From: Chitinophagaceae bacterium
GTDB taxonomy: Bacteria > Bacteroidota > Bacteroidia > Chitinophagales > UBA10324
Length of the DNA stretch: 64,000 nucleotides
Reading direction: 5' to 3'
NCBI GenBank assembly: GCA_947469485.1
Contig: CANIPU010000001.1
Span: 62,001-126,000 of the forward strand
Shown: one piece after another, positions 23,749 to 29,872 of the stretch
Layout: the number at the start of each line of letters is the position of its first letter
Numbering within the stretch: the first letter of the stretch is position 1
Position numbers and translations under genes: made by a program
Notes under the pieces: generated by a model
Database searches by the model: none
Told to the model about the DNA's origin: nothing
What the model saw: only the letters and a program-made list of their open reading frames with translations

Positions 23749-23786
23749 TTGTCTATATTACAATCTTATATTTGTTTTTATTACAG
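23749..23786. promoter_or_regulatory. dinB promoter with paired 11-bp operator dyads
   Basis: Plus strand: TTG (23749-23751), 1 nt, CTATATTACAA (23753-23763), 3 nt, TATATTTG (23767-23774), 1 nt, TTTTATTACAG (23776-23786). Each 11-mer matches the dyad TTGTAnTACAA at 8 of 10 defined positions. The two centres are 23 bp apart. The layout is base for base the same in spacing as at dnaE2 (29835-29872). I infer that the neighbouring XRE/S24 repressor binds here. Confidence 0.7.
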
Positions 23787-23787
23787 C

Positions 23788-23818
23788 CAAAAATAATTAG
23801 TAAATCTTTTCCGGCAAA
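23788..23818 (-). promoter_or_regulatory. predicted promoter of the XRE/S24 repressor gene
   Basis: Minus strand: TTTG (23818-23815), 19 nt, TATTTTTG (23795-23788). Transcription would start near 23781, the centre of the dinB-proximal dyad, leaving a leader of about 130 nt before ATG 23648. It fits autoregulation; the long leader makes it less certain. Confidence 0.5.
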
Positions 23819-23830
23819 TTAATTTCTACC

Positions 23831-25033
23831 ATGCTCCTCACTCCTTCGCGCAATATTGTACACATGGACCTCGACTCGTTCTTCGTGTCGGTGTCGTGCC
23901 TACAACATCCGGAGTTGAAAAACAAACCTGTACTCATTGGCGGAAGCAGCGACCGCGGTGTGGTGGCTTCGTGCAGTTACGAAGCGCGCAAGTATGGTAT
24001 TCATTCCGCTATGTCAATGAAACTGGCGCGCCGGCTGTGTCCCGAAGCGGTGGTATTGCGTGGCGATTACGAGCTGTACAGCAAGTATTCTGAAATGGTA
24101 ACAGATATTATCCGCGATGGTGTGCCGCTGTATGAGAAGAGTTCGATTGATGAATTTTACATTGACCTCACCGGCATGGATAAATTTTTCGGCTGCTATC
24201 AATGGGCAACCGAACTACGCAAAAAAATTACAAGCGAAACGGGATTGCCCATTTCATTTGGTTTATCTGAAAACAAAACGGTAAGTAAAGTTGCCACCGG
24301 CGAAGCGAAACCAAACGGGCAAATGAAAATTGATTTCGGCAATGAAAAATCTTTTCTGGCTCCGCTGCGAGTTGAAAAAATTCCGATGATTGGCGAGAAA
24401 ACTGCACATCTGCTGCACAGCATGGGCGTGCAAAAAGTTTTAACGCTGCAGCAAATGCCGCGCGAACTGTTACAGCGCGTGCTCGGCGACAACGGAATTT
24501 CTATCTGGAAAAAAGCAAACGGCATTGACACTTCACCCGTTGAACCTTACAATGAACGCAAGAGCATCAGTTCCGAAGAAACTTTCGATAGCGATACCAT
24601 TGACATCAGTTTTCTGAAAGCCACGCTCGTGAGCATGACCGAGAAACTTGCTTACCAGTTGCGCAAGGAAGAAAAACTCACTGCGTGTGTAACAGTAAAG
24701 CTACGATACTCCAATTTCGATACACACACAGTGCAGTTGCGCGTGCCTTACACGAACTGCGACCATCACCTGATTCCGCGCGTGAAAGAATTGTTTGAGA
24801 AACTATACGAGCGCCGCATGTTAATCCGGTTGATTGGTGTGCGCTTCAGTCATTTAGTGGCGGGCGGTTACCAGATTAATTTGTTTGAAGATTCTTCGGA
24901 GCTGATTCAACTATATCAGGCAATGGATAAAATGCGCAAGCGATTCGGCAGCGATAAAGTAAAGCGCGCCACAGGAATGGAAATGACACGCAGAAGTTTT
25001 AATCCTTTTAACGGGAAGAAAACAGATGATTGA
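23831..25033 (+). CDS. dinB: DNA polymerase IV-type Y-family polymerase
   Basis: 400 aa. Y-family translesion polymerase. The catalytic acids are intact: Asp13 in HMDLDSFF, Asp107 and Glu108 in SSIDEFYIDL. Steric-gate region and finger motif SYEARKYGIHSAM are typical. The thumb helix-hairpin-helix IPMIGEKTAHLLHSMGV is followed by the little finger. A beta-clamp motif QINLF lies at 348-352. Codons are more GC-rich than in most of the window (35 of 60 G+C in 24001-24060 by my count). It is divergent from the XRE/S24 repressor and predicted to be repressed by it. Confidence 0.93.
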   Translation: MLLTPSRNIVHMDLDSFFVSVSCLQHPELKNKPVLIGGSSDRGVVASCSYEARKYGIHSAMSMKLARRLCPEAVVLRGDYELYSKYSEMVTDIIRDGVPLYEKSSIDEFYIDLTGMDKFFGCYQWATELRKKITSETGLPISFGLSENKTVSKVATGEAKPNGQMKIDFGNEKSFLAPLRVEKIPMIGEKTAHLLHSMGVQKVLTLQQMPRELLQRVLGDNGISIWKKANGIDTSPVEPYNERKSISSEETFDSDTIDISFLKATLVSMTEKLAYQLRKEEKLTACVTVKLRYSNFDTHTVQLRVPYTNCDHHLIPRVKELFEKLYERRMLIRLIGVRFSHLVAGGYQINLFEDSSELIQLYQAMDKMRKRFGSDKVKRATGMEMTRRSFNPFNGKKTDD

Positions 25034-25039
25034 AAAAAC

Positions 25040-25708
25040 CTAAAGCTTTATCATCTCTTCGCTTCCTTTCCCTTCACAAAACTCAAACATCACTTCAGCA
25101 ATATCAGTTGGTTTATTCCACTTACTGAAATCAGCATCGGGCATGGCAGTTCTGTTTATAGGAGTATCAATGGTTGATGGTGCAATTACCAGTGAGTTTA
25201 AATTCAACTCTTTTCCGGCAGCATTTAATAAACCACTGAACTGAAACAATAATGATTTTGATAAACTGTAAGCCATCATATTTTTTCCAACTGCAGGATT
25301 CAAAGCACCCAAAGCTCCCATCAGAATAATTTTTCCGGATTTATTTTCTTTCATATGTGAGAAGAGTGGCTGAACAATATGAAATGCGGAAAGAAAATTC
25401 ATCTGAATCATTTTTTGTAAACTTTCATCGGTTGTTTCCTCCAGTTTTCCCATGGCAAACCCACCAACCAATAATGCTGCTGCATTTATGTGCGAATATT
25501 TTTTTATCAATTCACTCACAAAATCTCGACAAGCTTTTTCATCAAACACATTTAATTCCACTACTTCTAAATTTTGTTTTGCCGGAATTTCATTTTTGTG
25601 TTGGACAGTTGCAATTACAAAGTATCCTTCCGAAAGAAATTTTTCTACCACTGCAGTTCCTAAATTTCCGGCTGCTCCGGTTATGAGAATAGTTTTATTA
25701 ACTTCCAT
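25040..25708 (-). CDS. short-chain dehydrogenase/reductase
   Basis: 222 aa, a complete classical-type SDR. Cofactor motif TGAAGNLG near the N-terminus, NAAALLVGG strand region, and the YSLSK active-site Tyr-Lys. The first residues and lengths are usual. Substrate cannot be told. It converges on dinB with only 6 bp between the two stop codons. Confidence 0.85.
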   Translation of the reverse strand: MEVNKTILITGAAGNLGTAVVEKFLSEGYFVIATVQHKNEIPAKQNLEVVELNVFDEKACRDFVSELIKKYSHINAAALLVGGFAMGKLEETTDESLQKMIQMNFLSAFHIVQPLFSHMKENKSGKIILMGALGALNPAVGKNMMAYSLSKSLLFQFSGLLNAAGKELNLNSLVIAPSTIDTPINRTAMPDADFSKWNKPTDIAEVMFEFCEGKGSEEMIKL

Positions 25709-25718
25709 TTTAAAATAT

Positions 25719-25746
25719 TTGACAACAGAAAAATAAAATTTATTTG
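25719..25746 (+). promoter_or_regulatory. possible promoter of the TPR gene
   Basis: TTG (25719-25721), 17 nt, TTTATTTG (25739-25746), which matches TAnnTTTG except at the second base. It lies 62 nt before the ATG. Confidence 0.4.
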
Positions 25747-25808
25747 CAAAGAAATTTTAAAACGAAAAACACTTGATTTAAATTGCAATCAGAACAACCT
25801 AAAAAAAC

Positions 25809-26318
25809 ATGAGCGACCCGATTAACAGTTTGCAAAATGACGAACTTTTCTTTGAAGCTGACGGGCAAATTGCTCAGGGGAAGATCAGCGAAGCGTTAAC
25901 TACGCTCGAAGCGATTTTACTGGAAGATCCTACCTATGGAAAAGCGTACAATCACATGGGGTGGATTTATGAAACCAAATTCAAGGATTATAAAAAAGCT
26001 GAAGAGTTTTATAAAAAGTGTTATGCCTATACTCCTGAATATCCGGCTATTTACATTAACCTTTCCATAATACTTTCTACTCTTGGTAAGTACGATGAAC
26101 TTGAAAGTTTCATTCAGAAAGGATTACAAGTAGCTGGAACAGATAAAGCCGCATTGTACAACGAGTATGCAATAATGTTTGAATTGAAAGGCGAATACAA
26201 TAAAGCAATAGAACTGTTTAAAAATGCTGTTCGCTTTTCGTTGAATGACACCAATGTAGATACTTATTCAAAATCAATTGCGCGCTGTAAAAAGAAAATT
26301 GAATTATTAAATAGTTAA
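25809..26318 (+). CDS. tetratricopeptide-repeat protein
   Basis: 169 aa, no signal peptide, so cytoplasmic. About four TPR units: residues 14-44 (ADGQIAQGKISEALTTLEAILLEDP), 45-80 (GKAYNHMGWIYETKFKDYKKAEEFYKKC), 81-112, and 117-150 (AALYNEYAIMFELKGEYNKAIELFKNA). A protein-interaction scaffold; partner unknown. Confidence 0.85.
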   Translation: MSDPINSLQNDELFFEADGQIAQGKISEALTTLEAILLEDPTYGKAYNHMGWIYETKFKDYKKAEEFYKKCYAYTPEYPAIYINLSIILSTLGKYDELESFIQKGLQVAGTDKAALYNEYAIMFELKGEYNKAIELFKNAVRFSLNDTNVDTYSKSIARCKKKIELLNS

Positions 26319-26349
26319 AAAACCTTCATTACTTAATTGTAAAGGTTTT
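26319..26349. terminator. weak bidirectional terminator
   Basis: Eight-bp stem AAAACCTT/AAGGTTTT with a 15-nt loop between the converging TPR and lipoprotein genes. Base-pairing is AT-rich, so its strength is doubtful. Confidence 0.45.
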
Positions 26350-26368
26350 CGAAAACTAAAAAATATTT

Positions 26369-26791
26369 TTATAATTCTTCGAGGGTAGTAATGTTTGATG
26401 CATTACTAACATCAGTCGCAGTTAATTTTTTCTTGTCGATGAATTCAATGTGAAAACTACCAGGAGCCAAAAGAGAATCTGAAGGAGTGATTGACAAAAC
26501 ATCATCCTTCACTATCCAGGTATAGTTGGCAGAAATAGAAATAGGAAACCCTAATAAATTATAAGAAATTGTATAAACTCCGTTACAGGGTTCATCCTTC
26601 TTTTTACAATCACTGAACTGGTATTGCGCGGTTGCACCCAATAAAAGAGCAGCATTAATGATTGAATCAGTAGTTGAAGTCAGTTTCCATGTACCTGAAA
26701 GATTTTTACGGATTTTATGCTCCTTGCTACATGCACCAAAAAGCACAATCATTATTAATAATGCCGATGCTGTTTTTAAAATATTCTTCAT
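26369..26791 (-). CDS. lipocalin-like lipoprotein
   Basis: 140 aa from ATG 26791, chosen because it gives a proper signal peptide with lipobox LFGAC; an upstream in-frame ATG adds 11 polar residues. The mature start KIRKNLSGTWKLTSTTDS and strand pattern match the lipocalin-like (DUF4923/lipocalin_5-type) families common in Bacteroidota. Ligand unknown. It lies downstream of dnaE2 and is on the same strand, 69 bp away. Confidence 0.65.
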   Translation of the reverse strand: MKNILKTASALLIMIVLFGACSKEHKIRKNLSGTWKLTSTTDSIINAALLLGATAQYQFSDCKKKDEPCNGVYTISYNLLGFPISISANYTWIVKDDVLSITPSDSLLAPGSFHIEFIDKKKLTATDVSNASNITTLEEL

Positions 26792-26860
26792 TAATTTTTT
26801 ATTTGAACACAAGATTAATTGCATTGCTGATTAGTTGCATTTTGATTGAATGAAATTTAT

Positions 26861-29830
26861 TCACGCTACTTTCAAAGTGTGTTGTTCCTGCTTCATCAAA
26901 TCTTCTCTTGTAATAAAATCCAGTTTATGCATGGCAGTAACTTCCAGGCTGTAAAATCCAAATTCTTCAGCTACTCTACCTGTAATGCGATAACAACCTC
27001 GCCCGCGAAACGGAAACATTTTTGTTTCATTTGGAAAATGAGTGGTGTCGAAAAAGAATCCATCGCGGTCGAGCCAGGTACCGAAGCGCATTTCATCTCC
27101 TCTTTTTGTTCGGGTGTACTTGGTGGTTACGAGGTAGCCAATCATCACCACAATTTTTCCATTGTGATTTTTTAAATCGTGCGAAAGAATTGCTGTTGCG
27201 ATTTCTTCCTTCAACAAATCAAAAGGTGAGCACAACGGGAAACCGAGCAACTCAATTTCATCGAGGGCATCATCGAGTTGATGGTATGAGAGAACAGGTA
27301 GTGTAAAATTGGTTGGAGGCATAGCAAAAAGTTCGGGATGCGGAGCAGTATGTTTTTCGTTGCCAAGCACGGTATGAATATCCCACAACAATTGTTTCTT
27401 ACTTCGACCCGTGAAACGAAAAGCACCAATGCGCACGAGTATGCGCAACTGGTCGAGCGTGCAATTCACGCGATTGCAAAAATCTTCAAGACTGAGAAAT
27501 GCTCCGTGTAATTTTCGTTCAGCTTCTATTCGCTGCGAAGTGGTTGCTTCCATTTCGGCCAGGTGAATGAAGCCGAGAAAAATATCATCACCCGAAATTG
27601 TGGTGAGGTGATTGCTTCGGTTAATGTCGGGTGCGTGAATATTGGCGCCGCTCATGTGCGCTTCGTGCACATAAAATTCGGTTTGATAAAACCCGCCGAA
27701 ATTATTTATCACACCCACCATAAATTCTTTAGGATAATAAGTTTTCAAAAACAAACTCTGGTAGCTCTCCACCGCATACGATGCCGAGTGCCCTTTTGAA
27801 AAAGCATAGCCGGCAAAGCTTTCAATCTGCCGCCACACTTCGGTAGTTATTTTTCGTTCATAACCCTTCGCATCGCAGTTGGCGAAAAATTTTTCTTTCA
27901 CTTTATCAAACTCTTCGCGCCCGCGGAATTTTCCCGACATGCCACGGCGCAACATATCGGCTTCGGTGAGTGTGAGCCCGGCAAAGTAGTGCGCCACTTT
28001 TATCACATCTTCCTGATACACCATGATGCCGTAAGTTTCCGCCATCAGTTCCTGCATGAACGGATGAATGTATGTGCGCTGCGAAGCATCACGATGGCGA
28101 ACAATGTATTCGCGCATCATACCCGAACTCGCCACGCCCGGGCGAATGATGGAACTTGCCGCTACAAGAGATATATAATTATCAACTTCCAGTTTTTTCA
28201 GCAACATGCGCATCGCAGGACTCTCAATGTAAAAGCAACCCATGCATCGCGCATCGCGCAGGTTTGCTTTCATGTTTTCGTCCTGCTTAAATTTTTTTAT
28301 ATCGTGAATGTCAATTTCAATGTTACGGTTTTGTTTTACAATTTCCACTGTGTCTTTTATGTGTCCGAGTCCGCGTTGTGAAAGAATATCGAATTTGTAA
28401 AGCCCCACATCTTCCGCTTCAATCATGCTGAACTGCGAAACCGGAAAACCTTTTGGCGGATTACTCAGTGCGGTGTAATAAGTCAGTGGTTTTTCTGAAA
28501 TCAGAATTCCTCCTGCGTGAATGCCGAGGTGCGCGGGGAAACCATACAAGCGCTCCACATAACGGTAAATTAATTTCCCTGTTTCGTGCGATGGTTCGCT
28601 TCGTTTAAAATTATCGGCGAGCGAATCAATTTCATTTTTTGGTAAGCCAAAAACTTTTCCCAACTCACGAATCACTGCGTTGGCTTTAAACTCGCTGTAA
28701 GTGGCGAGCATGCTGGCGCAATAATTTTTTCCGTACTTGTTCAGAATAAACTCAATCACTTCATCGCGATCTTTCCAGCTGAAATCCAAATCGAAATCGG
28801 GCGGACTGGTGCGCGATGGATTTATGAACCTCTCGAAATACAAATCCAGATCAATAGGGTCAACATCGGTAATGCGCAACAGGTAAGCCACCATGCTGTT
28901 AGCGCCGCTGCCGCGACCGATGTAAAAAAAATTCTTCTGCTGTGCGAATGATACAATGTCGTGATTGATGAGAAAGTATGAAGCAAAATTCCCCTCTTGT
29001 ATCATGCACAGTTCTTTTTTCAGGCGCTCCAGAATTCTTCCACCTACATTTTCATACCGATACTTAAGCGCCTCATAACAGAATTTTCGCAATTGCTGCA
29101 TATCGCTTTCCACACTTACTGTAAAATATTTTTTGTTCTTGCTTTTTCCGAAATCAAAATCAATGCTGCACTGCTCCAATAATTTATTCGCATTATCAAT
29201 GAGAAAAGGAAACAGTGCAAAAATCTTTTGCGCATCTGCTTCTGTCATCATCACTTCGGTTTCATCAGCTGTTTCAGTTTTAGATAATTTGCTGAGCAAA
29301 GTATTGTTGGCAACAGCACGCAACAACCGGTGAATGTTAAAATCAATTTTTGTGCTGACGGTGACAGTAAAAAGAGCCACTAATTTCTCTTGTTGGTTTT
29401 TTAGTTTGGAGAAAAGCAGCTTGTTAATGTCGGCCGGACGAATGCCTATGAATTCATTTTCGTTAAGTGTGGGTGGTTGTTTTCCGAAAGGATAAATTAC
29501 AAATACTTTTTCGAAAGCAGGGGCATGTGGGGGAATCGGTTCTTCAGTTTGTAAATGATGCGTGAGTAATTCATTCAGTTCGCGAAAGCCCTCGTTGTTT
29601 TTTGCAATGCAAATGAATTGTTGTTGTGCGCCATTTCGAAAATCAATTCCAACGACAGGAAAAACATGATACTTCGGAGCAAGACGAACAAAGTCGAGTA
29701 CGCCCGATGTGTTGTTGATGTCGGTGAGTGCAATGCGATTAATGTTGTTTTTTTTTGCCTCACCGAGCAACCGCTCAATACTAAGTGTGCCGTATTTCAA
29801 ACTGAAATAGCTATGACAATTGAGAAACAT
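26861..29830 (-). CDS. dnaE2: error-prone DNA polymerase III alpha subunit, DnaE2 type
   Basis: 989 aa, shorter than replicative DnaE (about 1160). N-terminal PHP domain (1-210), polymerase core and a C-terminal OB-fold region (about 900-975: KIVVMIGYLVTTKYTRTKRGDEMRFGTWLD). Catalytic acids: Asp347 and Asp349 in PDFDLDF and Asp481 in YKFDILSQ. The PHP metal site is incomplete: the expected HxH reads NCH and TDH reads TDI, so no proofreading activity is expected. The tau-binding end of replicative DnaE is absent. Its promoter carries the same paired dyads as dinB, linking the two polymerases in one regulon. Confidence 0.88.
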   Translation of the reverse strand: MFLNCHSYFSLKYGTLSIERLLGEAKKNNINRIALTDINNTSGVLDFVRLAPKYHVFPVVGIDFRNGAQQQFICIAKNNEGFRELNELLTHHLQTEEPIPPHAPAFEKVFVIYPFGKQPPTLNENEFIGIRPADINKLLFSKLKNQQEKLVALFTVTVSTKIDFNIHRLLRAVANNTLLSKLSKTETADETEVMMTEADAQKIFALFPFLIDNANKLLEQCSIDFDFGKSKNKKYFTVSVESDMQQLRKFCYEALKYRYENVGGRILERLKKELCMIQEGNFASYFLINHDIVSFAQQKNFFYIGRGSGANSMVAYLLRITDVDPIDLDLYFERFINPSRTSPPDFDLDFSWKDRDEVIEFILNKYGKNYCASMLATYSEFKANAVIRELGKVFGLPKNEIDSLADNFKRSEPSHETGKLIYRYVERLYGFPAHLGIHAGGILISEKPLTYYTALSNPPKGFPVSQFSMIEAEDVGLYKFDILSQRGLGHIKDTVEIVKQNRNIEIDIHDIKKFKQDENMKANLRDARCMGCFYIESPAMRMLLKKLEVDNYISLVAASSIIRPGVASSGMMREYIVRHRDASQRTYIHPFMQELMAETYGIMVYQEDVIKVAHYFAGLTLTEADMLRRGMSGKFRGREEFDKVKEKFFANCDAKGYERKITTEVWRQIESFAGYAFSKGHSASYAVESYQSLFLKTYYPKEFMVGVINNFGGFYQTEFYVHEAHMSGANIHAPDINRSNHLTTISGDDIFLGFIHLAEMEATTSQRIEAERKLHGAFLSLEDFCNRVNCTLDQLRILVRIGAFRFTGRSKKQLLWDIHTVLGNEKHTAPHPELFAMPPTNFTLPVLSYHQLDDALDEIELLGFPLCSPFDLLKEEIATAILSHDLKNHNGKIVVMIGYLVTTKYTRTKRGDEMRFGTWLDRDGFFFDTTHFPNETKMFPFRGRGCYRITGRVAEEFGFYSLEVTAMHKLDFITREDLMKQEQHTLKVA

Positions 29831-29834
29831 AATG

Positions 29835-29872
29835 ATTGTATTACAAACAAATATATACTTGTATTACAATCA
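29835..29872. promoter_or_regulatory. dnaE2 promoter with paired 11-bp operator dyads
   Basis: Read on the minus strand: TTG (29872-29870), 1 nt, TTGTAATACAA (29868-29858), 3 nt, TATATTTG (29854-29847), 1 nt, TTGTAATACAA (29845-29835). Both 11-mers are perfect TTGTA-n-TACAA dyads, 23 bp apart centre to centre. The downstream one ends 5 nt before the ATG, so it covers the start of transcription. Confidence 0.78.

Follow-up and report, generated by a model that had tools for sequence, protein, structure and literature searches.

Paired dyads at the dinB and dnaE2 promoters of a Chitinophagaceae bacterium as predicted operators of a divergent CI-like S24 repressor

A dyad-box-dyad block recurs at dinB and dnaE2

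The window analyzed here is a 64,000-nucleotide stretch of the genome of a Chitinophagaceae bacterium (assembly GCA_947469485.1, contig CANIPU010000001.1, positions 62,001 to 126,000), with a GC content of 36% in a parent genome of 3.08 Mb. In this window the dinB gene is divergent from a gene for an XRE/S24-type protein (the S24 protein), and the spacer of 182 bp between them holds two dyads flanking the -7 box TATATTTG; the same arrangement is present upstream of dnaE2 (Table 1). The dinB block, on the plus strand at 23749-23786, reads TTG-T-CTATATTACAA-TCT-TATATTTG-T-TTTTATTACAG, with a score of 8 of 10 for each dyad, and the dnaE2 block, on the minus strand at 29873-29836, reads TTG-A-TTGTAATACAA-GTA-TATATTTG-T-TTGTAATACAA, with 10 of 10 for each. 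The centers of the dyads are 23 bp apart in both. This shared order and spacing had been proposed in a sequence-only reading of the window, which described the dyad as TTGTAnTACAA, perfect twice at dnaE2 and matching at 8 of 10 positions at both dinB sites. Direct reading and scoring agree with it, apart from the dnaE2 coordinates, given there as 29872-29835 and off by one. The name dnaE2 for the gene at 26861..29830 is taken from the sequence-only reading, and this subtype is suggested by a match to the error-prone model PRK05672 that lies under the cut-off of that model.

Table 1. Genes and predicted promoter elements at the two loci. O1 and O2 are the two predicted operators of each pair.
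Feature	Coordinates	Strand	Description	Support
Predicted S24/XRE repressor gene, 265 amino acids	22851..23648	minus	HTH_3 (CI-type helix-turn-helix) 7-62, S24 domain 113-220, Ala115-Gly116, Ser153, Lys192	Pfam, alignment of 11, fold matches
Predicted dinB operator O1, 17 bp	23750..23766, center 23758	plus	TGTCTATATTACAATCT	Identical in 4 congeners
dinB -7 box	23767..23774	plus	TATATTTG	Fits Bacteroidetes TAnnTTTG (consensus, PMC6847099)
Predicted dinB/S24 operator O2, 17 bp	23773..23789, center 23781	plus	Over predicted dinB transcription start, ~23779	Start from the offset in PMC6847099
Candidate S24-gene -7 box	23788..23795	minus	TATTTTTG; adjoins O2, faces dinB promoter	
dinB (DNA polymerase IV)	23831..25033	plus		Pfam IMS and NCBIfam PRK02406, both over cut-off
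dnaE2 (polymerase III alpha subunit family, 989 amino acids)	26861..29830	minus		Pfam DNA_pol3_alpha etc. and NCBIfam superfamily polc, over cut-off
Predicted dnaE2 operator O2	29833..29849, center 29841	minus	TGTTTGTAATACAATCA	
dnaE2 -7 box	29848..29855	minus	TATATTTG	
Predicted dnaE2 operator O1	29856..29872, center 29864	minus	TGATTGTAATACAAGTA	

Further analysis bore out the claim that this likeness is not expected by chance. First, the dnaE2 pair was the only 20/20 dyad pair in the window at spacings of 12 to 59 bp. Second, when the dinB 38-mer was slid along both strands of the window, the best other place was the dnaE2 block with 28 of 38 matches, compared to a best match of 23 to 25 in each of ten first-order Markov windows. 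Third, the paired dyads were not scattered genome-wide. When up to 3 mismatches were allowed, a search of the whole genome for the dyad pair returned dnaE2 (0 mismatches) and one other place (3 mismatches); the dinB pair, which has 4 mismatches, falls outside this search. The complete dyad-box-dyad pattern, searched at up to 3 mismatches in six genomes of the genus (own genome included), gave 11 matches, of which six were dinB and four were dnaE2 promoters, all with 0 or 1 mismatch, and one was elsewhere with 3 mismatches. Reversing the pattern yielded 5 matches in the same genomes at up to 3 mismatches, the mismatch numbers of each not being shown.

The block is also conserved. It was present at dinB in all six genomes, in one of which dinB itself is decayed, and at dnaE2 in all four genomes whose assembly includes the 5′ end of this gene (a count that omits genome G002, where the contig is truncated, and genome G001, where dnaE2 has no match). 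Positions 23749-23795 were 100% identical in four congeners and 96% identical in the fifth, compared to 71% and 40% for the S24-proximal part of the spacer. The dyads are thus kept in the orthologous upstream regions of the genus. An alternative is that the two promoters are alike through copying or through the TAnnTTTG consensus, the dyads being by-products that no repressor reads. The common core does include the -7 box, and in one relative (L009) a dnaE2 start directly follows dinB, so that relocation followed by copying of the promoter is conceivable. However, the dyads are kept while the spacer diverges, other lineages retain a pair with other letters (see below), and in G001 the dinB -7 box is altered whereas both dyads remain. 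We therefore consider this alternative very unlikely.

G001 (L008/L126) also stands out for what it has lost. Its S24 gene is 90% identical and retains both dyads, and its dinB -7 box reads TATATATG. No credible DinB match was found in the 5.8 kb around S24 (best tblastn E value of 0.82; the rest of the genome was not searched), nor was there a dnaE2 match at E ≤ 1e-100. In this genome the repressor seems to have outlived its targets.

Single dyads were less informative. There were 13 exact copies of TTGTANTACAA in the own genome compared to 5 of the reversed pattern, and the corresponding numbers in five congeners were 9/5, 7/0, 5/6, 8/7, and 10/9, together 39 versus 27. In the own genome, 8 of the 11 copies outside dnaE2 fall within open reading frames (ORFs) of at least 90 amino acids. 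Because exact single dyads exceed the control only mildly and lie mostly within ORFs, a genome-wide regulon of single dyads was rejected, and the evidence is taken to be the pair together with the -7 box and its conservation. No further SOS genes were recognized beside exact single dyads in 48 flanking stretches, whose ORFs were judged by eye from their first residues with no family search. One single dyad lies 40 bp upstream of a presumably murA-like gene; it has no counterpart among the exact sites of the congeners and was regarded as a chance occurrence. An exact TTGTAGTACAA with identical neighbors lies 170-175 bp upstream of the same gene in two congeners, at L080 and L090 (G000:C10 and G001:C57); it may belong to an RNA gene or be a site. 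Upstream of recA, one single dyad of 8/10 (TAGnAATACAA) was found 31-34 bp before the gene in five of the six genomes (L214, L216-L219), and it could be a weak operator. The recA gene is interrupted by contig ends at about residue 200 in the own genome (G000:C21 end, G000:C8 start; L219, L221) and in G002; it is whole in the four other congeners, and a repeat or insertion at about residue 200 is possible.

The divergent gene encodes a CI-like S24 protein

The S24 protein contains an HTH_3 domain and a Peptidase_S24 domain, both over the Pfam cut-off, and the LexA winged-helix domain PF01726 was absent from its Pfam matches at E ≤ 0.001. Ala115-Gly116, Ser153, and Lys192 are invariant in an alignment of 11 S24 proteins. 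In the predicted structure, which is of moderate confidence (predicted local distance difference test, 77; predicted template modeling score, 0.54), the modeled helix-turn-helix (HTH) resembles those of SinR, ImmR, and P22 c2 (Z scores of 9-10) and of the 434 repressor, and the modeled C-terminal domain resembles LexA and lambda CI (Z scores of 10-12). The order of a CI-type HTH and an S24 domain, the Ala-Gly pair, and the Ser/Lys residues are consistent with the sequence-only reading of this protein as a LexA-like self-cleaving repressor.

DinB is a frequent neighbor. Among 99 relatives with distinct upstream regions, a DinB match lay beside S24 on the opposite strand in 61 and on the same strand in none, the remaining 38 having no match in the stretch examined. 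At another relative (L012:2422 onward) the S24 gene is divergent from a helicase gene, presumably PriA-like, and a 24-bp dyad pair lies between the two.

A spacing of 23 bp recurs upstream of S24 genes

Pairs of similar dyads within 200 bp upstream of S24 genes were scored without a predefined motif. In the first sample of 99 regions, the best pair (score of at least 13) was at 23 bp in 24 regions and at 22-24 bp in 33, compared to 2.1 best pairs at 22-24 bp per shuffled set; some pair scoring at least 13 was found in 77 of the 99 real regions and in 481 of 990 shuffled ones. The second sample comprised 78 regions from across the class, chosen from the match list before their upstream DNA was seen. 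A 23-bp pair was present in 15 of these and in none of 77 control regions 400-600 bp upstream. The next spacings were 17 bp (10 regions) and 41 bp (9 regions), and the mean outside 22-24 bp was 3.24. Three of the 78 loci were common to the first sample, and when they were left out the count at 23 bp was 15 of 75.

The pooled set was then clustered by protein identity and scanned with 5-bp arms and a gap of 5. At 70% identity, a 23-bp pair was found in 21 of 97 clusters, compared to a mean of 1.41 and a maximum of 5 for spacings outside 22-24 bp and to 1 of 93 in the control. The values at 60% identity were 14 of 61 clusters, a mean of 1.00, a maximum of 3, and 1 of 59 in the control, and a looser cut of 17 gave 36 of 97 clusters at 23 bp versus a mean of 8.0. 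The 23-bp signal appeared with gaps of 3, 5, and 7 (13, 21, and 24 of 97 clusters) and hardly with gaps of 4 and 6 (3 and 3). This means that the scan defines the dyad center and the spacing, not the length of the spacer within the dyad. The published GGA-N5-TCC motif was present in 3 of 187 upstream regions compared to 5 of 182 control regions, so the spacing sample covers groups other than the one with these sites. In a second class, the dyads upstream of S24 resemble CTAA-N5-TTAG and are spaced at 17 bp (L022, and by reading L262, L272, and L273).

The letters of the 23-bp pairs differ between lineages. Among 42 strong pairs the half-site consensus was GATTA in 17, and GATAC, GTTAT, GATAA, GTTAA, GACAA, GCTAA, GCGTA, GTTTA, GATTG, and others were also found. 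A search of eight genomes for the GATTA pair found a single copy in each, identical in its letters to the one upstream of S24, and no copy of the reversed pattern. Three S24 homologues with 51-54% identity (L134, L137, and L148) have GATTA-N5-TAATC pairs and come from records labeled Bacteroidales, an assignment given by the label only; both regulator groups have been reported absent from the Bacteroidales (PMC8565304).

The predicted operator extends beyond the core dyad

Relatives whose recognition stretch is of the SRSTLNSYEN type have, by reading, GATTG-TAATA-CAATC and variants of it upstream, and another genus has a 24-bp pair at dnaE2 (L037, by reading). GATTG-N5-CAATC was found in 6 of 187 upstream regions compared to 0 of 182 control regions. 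In a scan with fixed GATTG/CAATC arms, 11 of 22 SRSTLNSYEN relatives had a best pair of at least 15/20, and in six of them it was spaced at 23 bp (L233, L234, L235, and L236) or 24 bp (L009 and L012). No such pair was present in the control region, and in four congeneric genomes the pair at dnaE2 was always spaced at 23 bp. In the 42 strong 23-bp pairs, T was found at half-site position -8 in 140 of 168 and G at -7 in 157 of 168, whereas -6, -4, and -3 vary; the half-site scoring itself uses position -7, not -8. The operator is therefore most likely of the TGATTG-N5-CAATCA type and 15-17 bp long. The TTGTAnTACAA dyad of the sequence-only reading is present as the core of this element, not as the whole of it. 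The upstream TTG had been read together with TAnnTTTG as a promoter element at a 15-nt spacing. As an outer TG is general in strong 23-bp pairs, the reading as a -33 element was set aside, which removes the weight of the 15-nt spacing, and the TTG is better explained as the outer TG of O1. In O2 the outer TG falls within the TTTG of its -7 box. The palindrome scans handle the dinB pair of the window poorly: with 4-bp arms it is registered two bases to the left (local center 107, not 109), and with 5-bp arms it scores 17/20, under the cut of 18. The claim for dinB rests on direct dyad scoring, the pattern search in the genus, and the conservation of the block.

As read from the tables, operators of a given class tend to be found beside S24 proteins with a particular recognition stretch. 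GATTA goes with KRSTLSGYEN (9 of 24) or similar stretches, GATAC with SRAKLNSYEN or SRGKLNSYEN (6 of 7), and TTGTA with SRSTLNSYEN (6 of 6, those shown belonging to the genus of the window). The link is not one-to-one, and SRAKLNSYEN is also found beside GTTAT. This trend bears on whether the dyads are operators of some regulator other than the divergent S24 protein, and several other genomes do have more than one S24 homologue. However, the own genome has a single S24 match at E ≤ 0.001, the operator class tends to follow the adjoining protein in the manner described, and published relatives bind their own promoters (PMC8565304), so that a different regulator is considered very unlikely.

A putative switch at facing promoters

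These data make it very probable, in our view, that the paired dyads are operators of the divergent S24 protein, a CI-like non-canonical LexA acting on dinB, dnaE2, and itself; the core of the sequence-only reading, an SOS-type operator shared by the two promoters and read by this protein, has so far passed its sequence-level tests. The -7 box spans -12 to -5 relative to the transcription start (PMC6847099). On the reverse strand, CAAAnnTA was found at +7 from the O2 center in 17 of the 42 strong pairs (next offset, 3), and in 5 of 21 after clustering at 70% (next, 2). A box at the same +7 offset, 23788-23795, is the candidate promoter of the S24 gene itself.

In the proposed mechanism, two S24 dimers would bind 23 bp apart, one at O1, immediately upstream of the -7 box, and one at O2, across the transcription start. 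They would keep RNA polymerase from dinB and dnaE2 and also from the promoter of the repressor gene. A single dimer at O2 could shut off the facing promoters of dinB and S24 together, and the other dimer of the pair would reinforce this effect. Upon DNA damage, self-cleavage at Ala115-Gly116 by Ser153/Lys192 would be set off by RecA filaments, the dimers would leave, and both polymerases and the repressor would be made. The 23-bp spacing may bring the two dimers into contact and so allow cooperative binding, as known for lambda CI at OR1 and OR2. This cooperative contact is the weakest step, and the high probability given above to the operator claim does not extend to it.

The main rival for this step is a purely steric one, in which the S24 operators act independently and 23 bp is fixed by the fit of the -7 box and the start. 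It concerns cooperativity only and otherwise overlaps with the repressor model. At dinB and dnaE2 the box and the start do lie between or under the dyads, and several SOS promoters have two or more motif instances, which is common in SOS networks (PMC8565304). However, only 3 of the 42 strong pairs have a forward box between their dyads where the window has it at dinB, whereas the outer S24 box was found in 17. We give independent sites somewhat less than an even chance.

Several observations weigh against the repressor model or the generality of the 23-bp rule. The dinB dyads are imperfect, and in the fixed-arm scan the dinB pair of the window is not the best pair, its left arms being weak. 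In the same scan, the other 5 of the 11 best pairs have five different spacings. Most of the 97 clusters are under the threshold at 23 bp, 17 bp stands out too (10 of 78) and goes in part with CTAA-N5-TTAG sites, and no dyad of at least 8/10 was found upstream of S24 in three loci of the same family (L011, L013, and L014). In the class-wide sample only 18 of 78 regions have a DinB match within 700 bp of S24, no dyad pair was found at the recA promoters of the six genus genomes, and the S24 leader implied by the facing box would be long, about 135 nt.

Discussion

The closest known systems are the Bacteroidetes non-canonical LexA proteins (COG2932 group), which bind N5-spaced dyads, are induced by mitomycin C, and have dinB, imuA-imuB-dnaE2, and DNA polymerase III alpha among their targets; the regulator of E. 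anophelis is encoded opposite an error-prone polymerase gene (PMC8565304). The S24 protein is like them in its CI-like HTH and S24 domain, its Ala-Gly and Ser-Lys residues, and possibly in the N5 spacer of its predicted dyads. It differs in its operator, predicted here as GATTG-N5-CAATC compared to GGA-N5-TCC, CTAA-N5-TTAG, and TTAC-N5-GTAA among the motifs in the published text; S24 relatives at 42-47% identity carry CTAA-N5-TTAG. It also differs in having 23-bp pairs, found at two promoters only, a spacing that was not found in the text of PMC8565304. Because that study itself reports diverged motifs, the operator of the window is regarded as a variant and is not excluded from the published group. 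Cooperativity is not mentioned in the main text of PMC8565304, where "spacing" and "distance" concern other things; further diverged sites may be given in its Figure 8A and Table S10. Literature searches did not turn up a 23-bp operator spacing rule.

Two other repressors are also comparable. Compared to canonical LexA, the S24 domain (best modeled C-terminal match 3k2z_A; Z score, 12.3; root mean square deviation, 3.0; 122 residues aligned), the cleavage residues, and the SOS targets appear alike, whereas the S24 protein has HTH_3 without the LexA winged helix and a predicted operator unlike the CTGT-N8-ACAG of E. coli. It shares with lambda CI the CI-type HTH and a modeled C-terminal match (8gmu_A; Z score, 10.0; root mean square deviation, 3.2; 116 aligned). 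At lambda OR, 17-bp dyads have centers 23-24 bp apart, and CI binds OR1 and OR2 cooperatively. Unlike CI, the S24 repressor is assigned to chromosomal repair genes, and cooperativity is proposed by analogy, the 23-bp geometry being the only feature compared. The kind of SOS repressor is thus known, and what is most likely new is the type of operator and the recurring 23-bp spacing.

That a 23-bp geometry outlasts the operator letters suggests, by analogy, a cooperativity like that at lambda OR. In its general form, the proposal is that non-canonical LexA proteins of the Bacteroidia tend to maintain a rigid pair of 17-bp TGnTnn-N5-nnAnCA dyads at 23 bp, with O2 abutting the -7 box and the inner letters changing together with the HTH residues, and so retain the cooperative logic of a phage ancestor; we rate its chances as about even. 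Bacteroidetes SOS repressors have been proposed to descend from phage repressors (PMC8565304), and the 23-bp pair would allow a direct test. If the dimers do bind cooperatively at 23 bp, a phage-type switch would have been kept in a chromosomal DNA damage response while its DNA code changed several times. Lineages with differing operators and recognition stretches also offer a natural experiment on the joint change of repressors and their operators, and operators missed by a search with a single motif may be exposed by the pairing rule.

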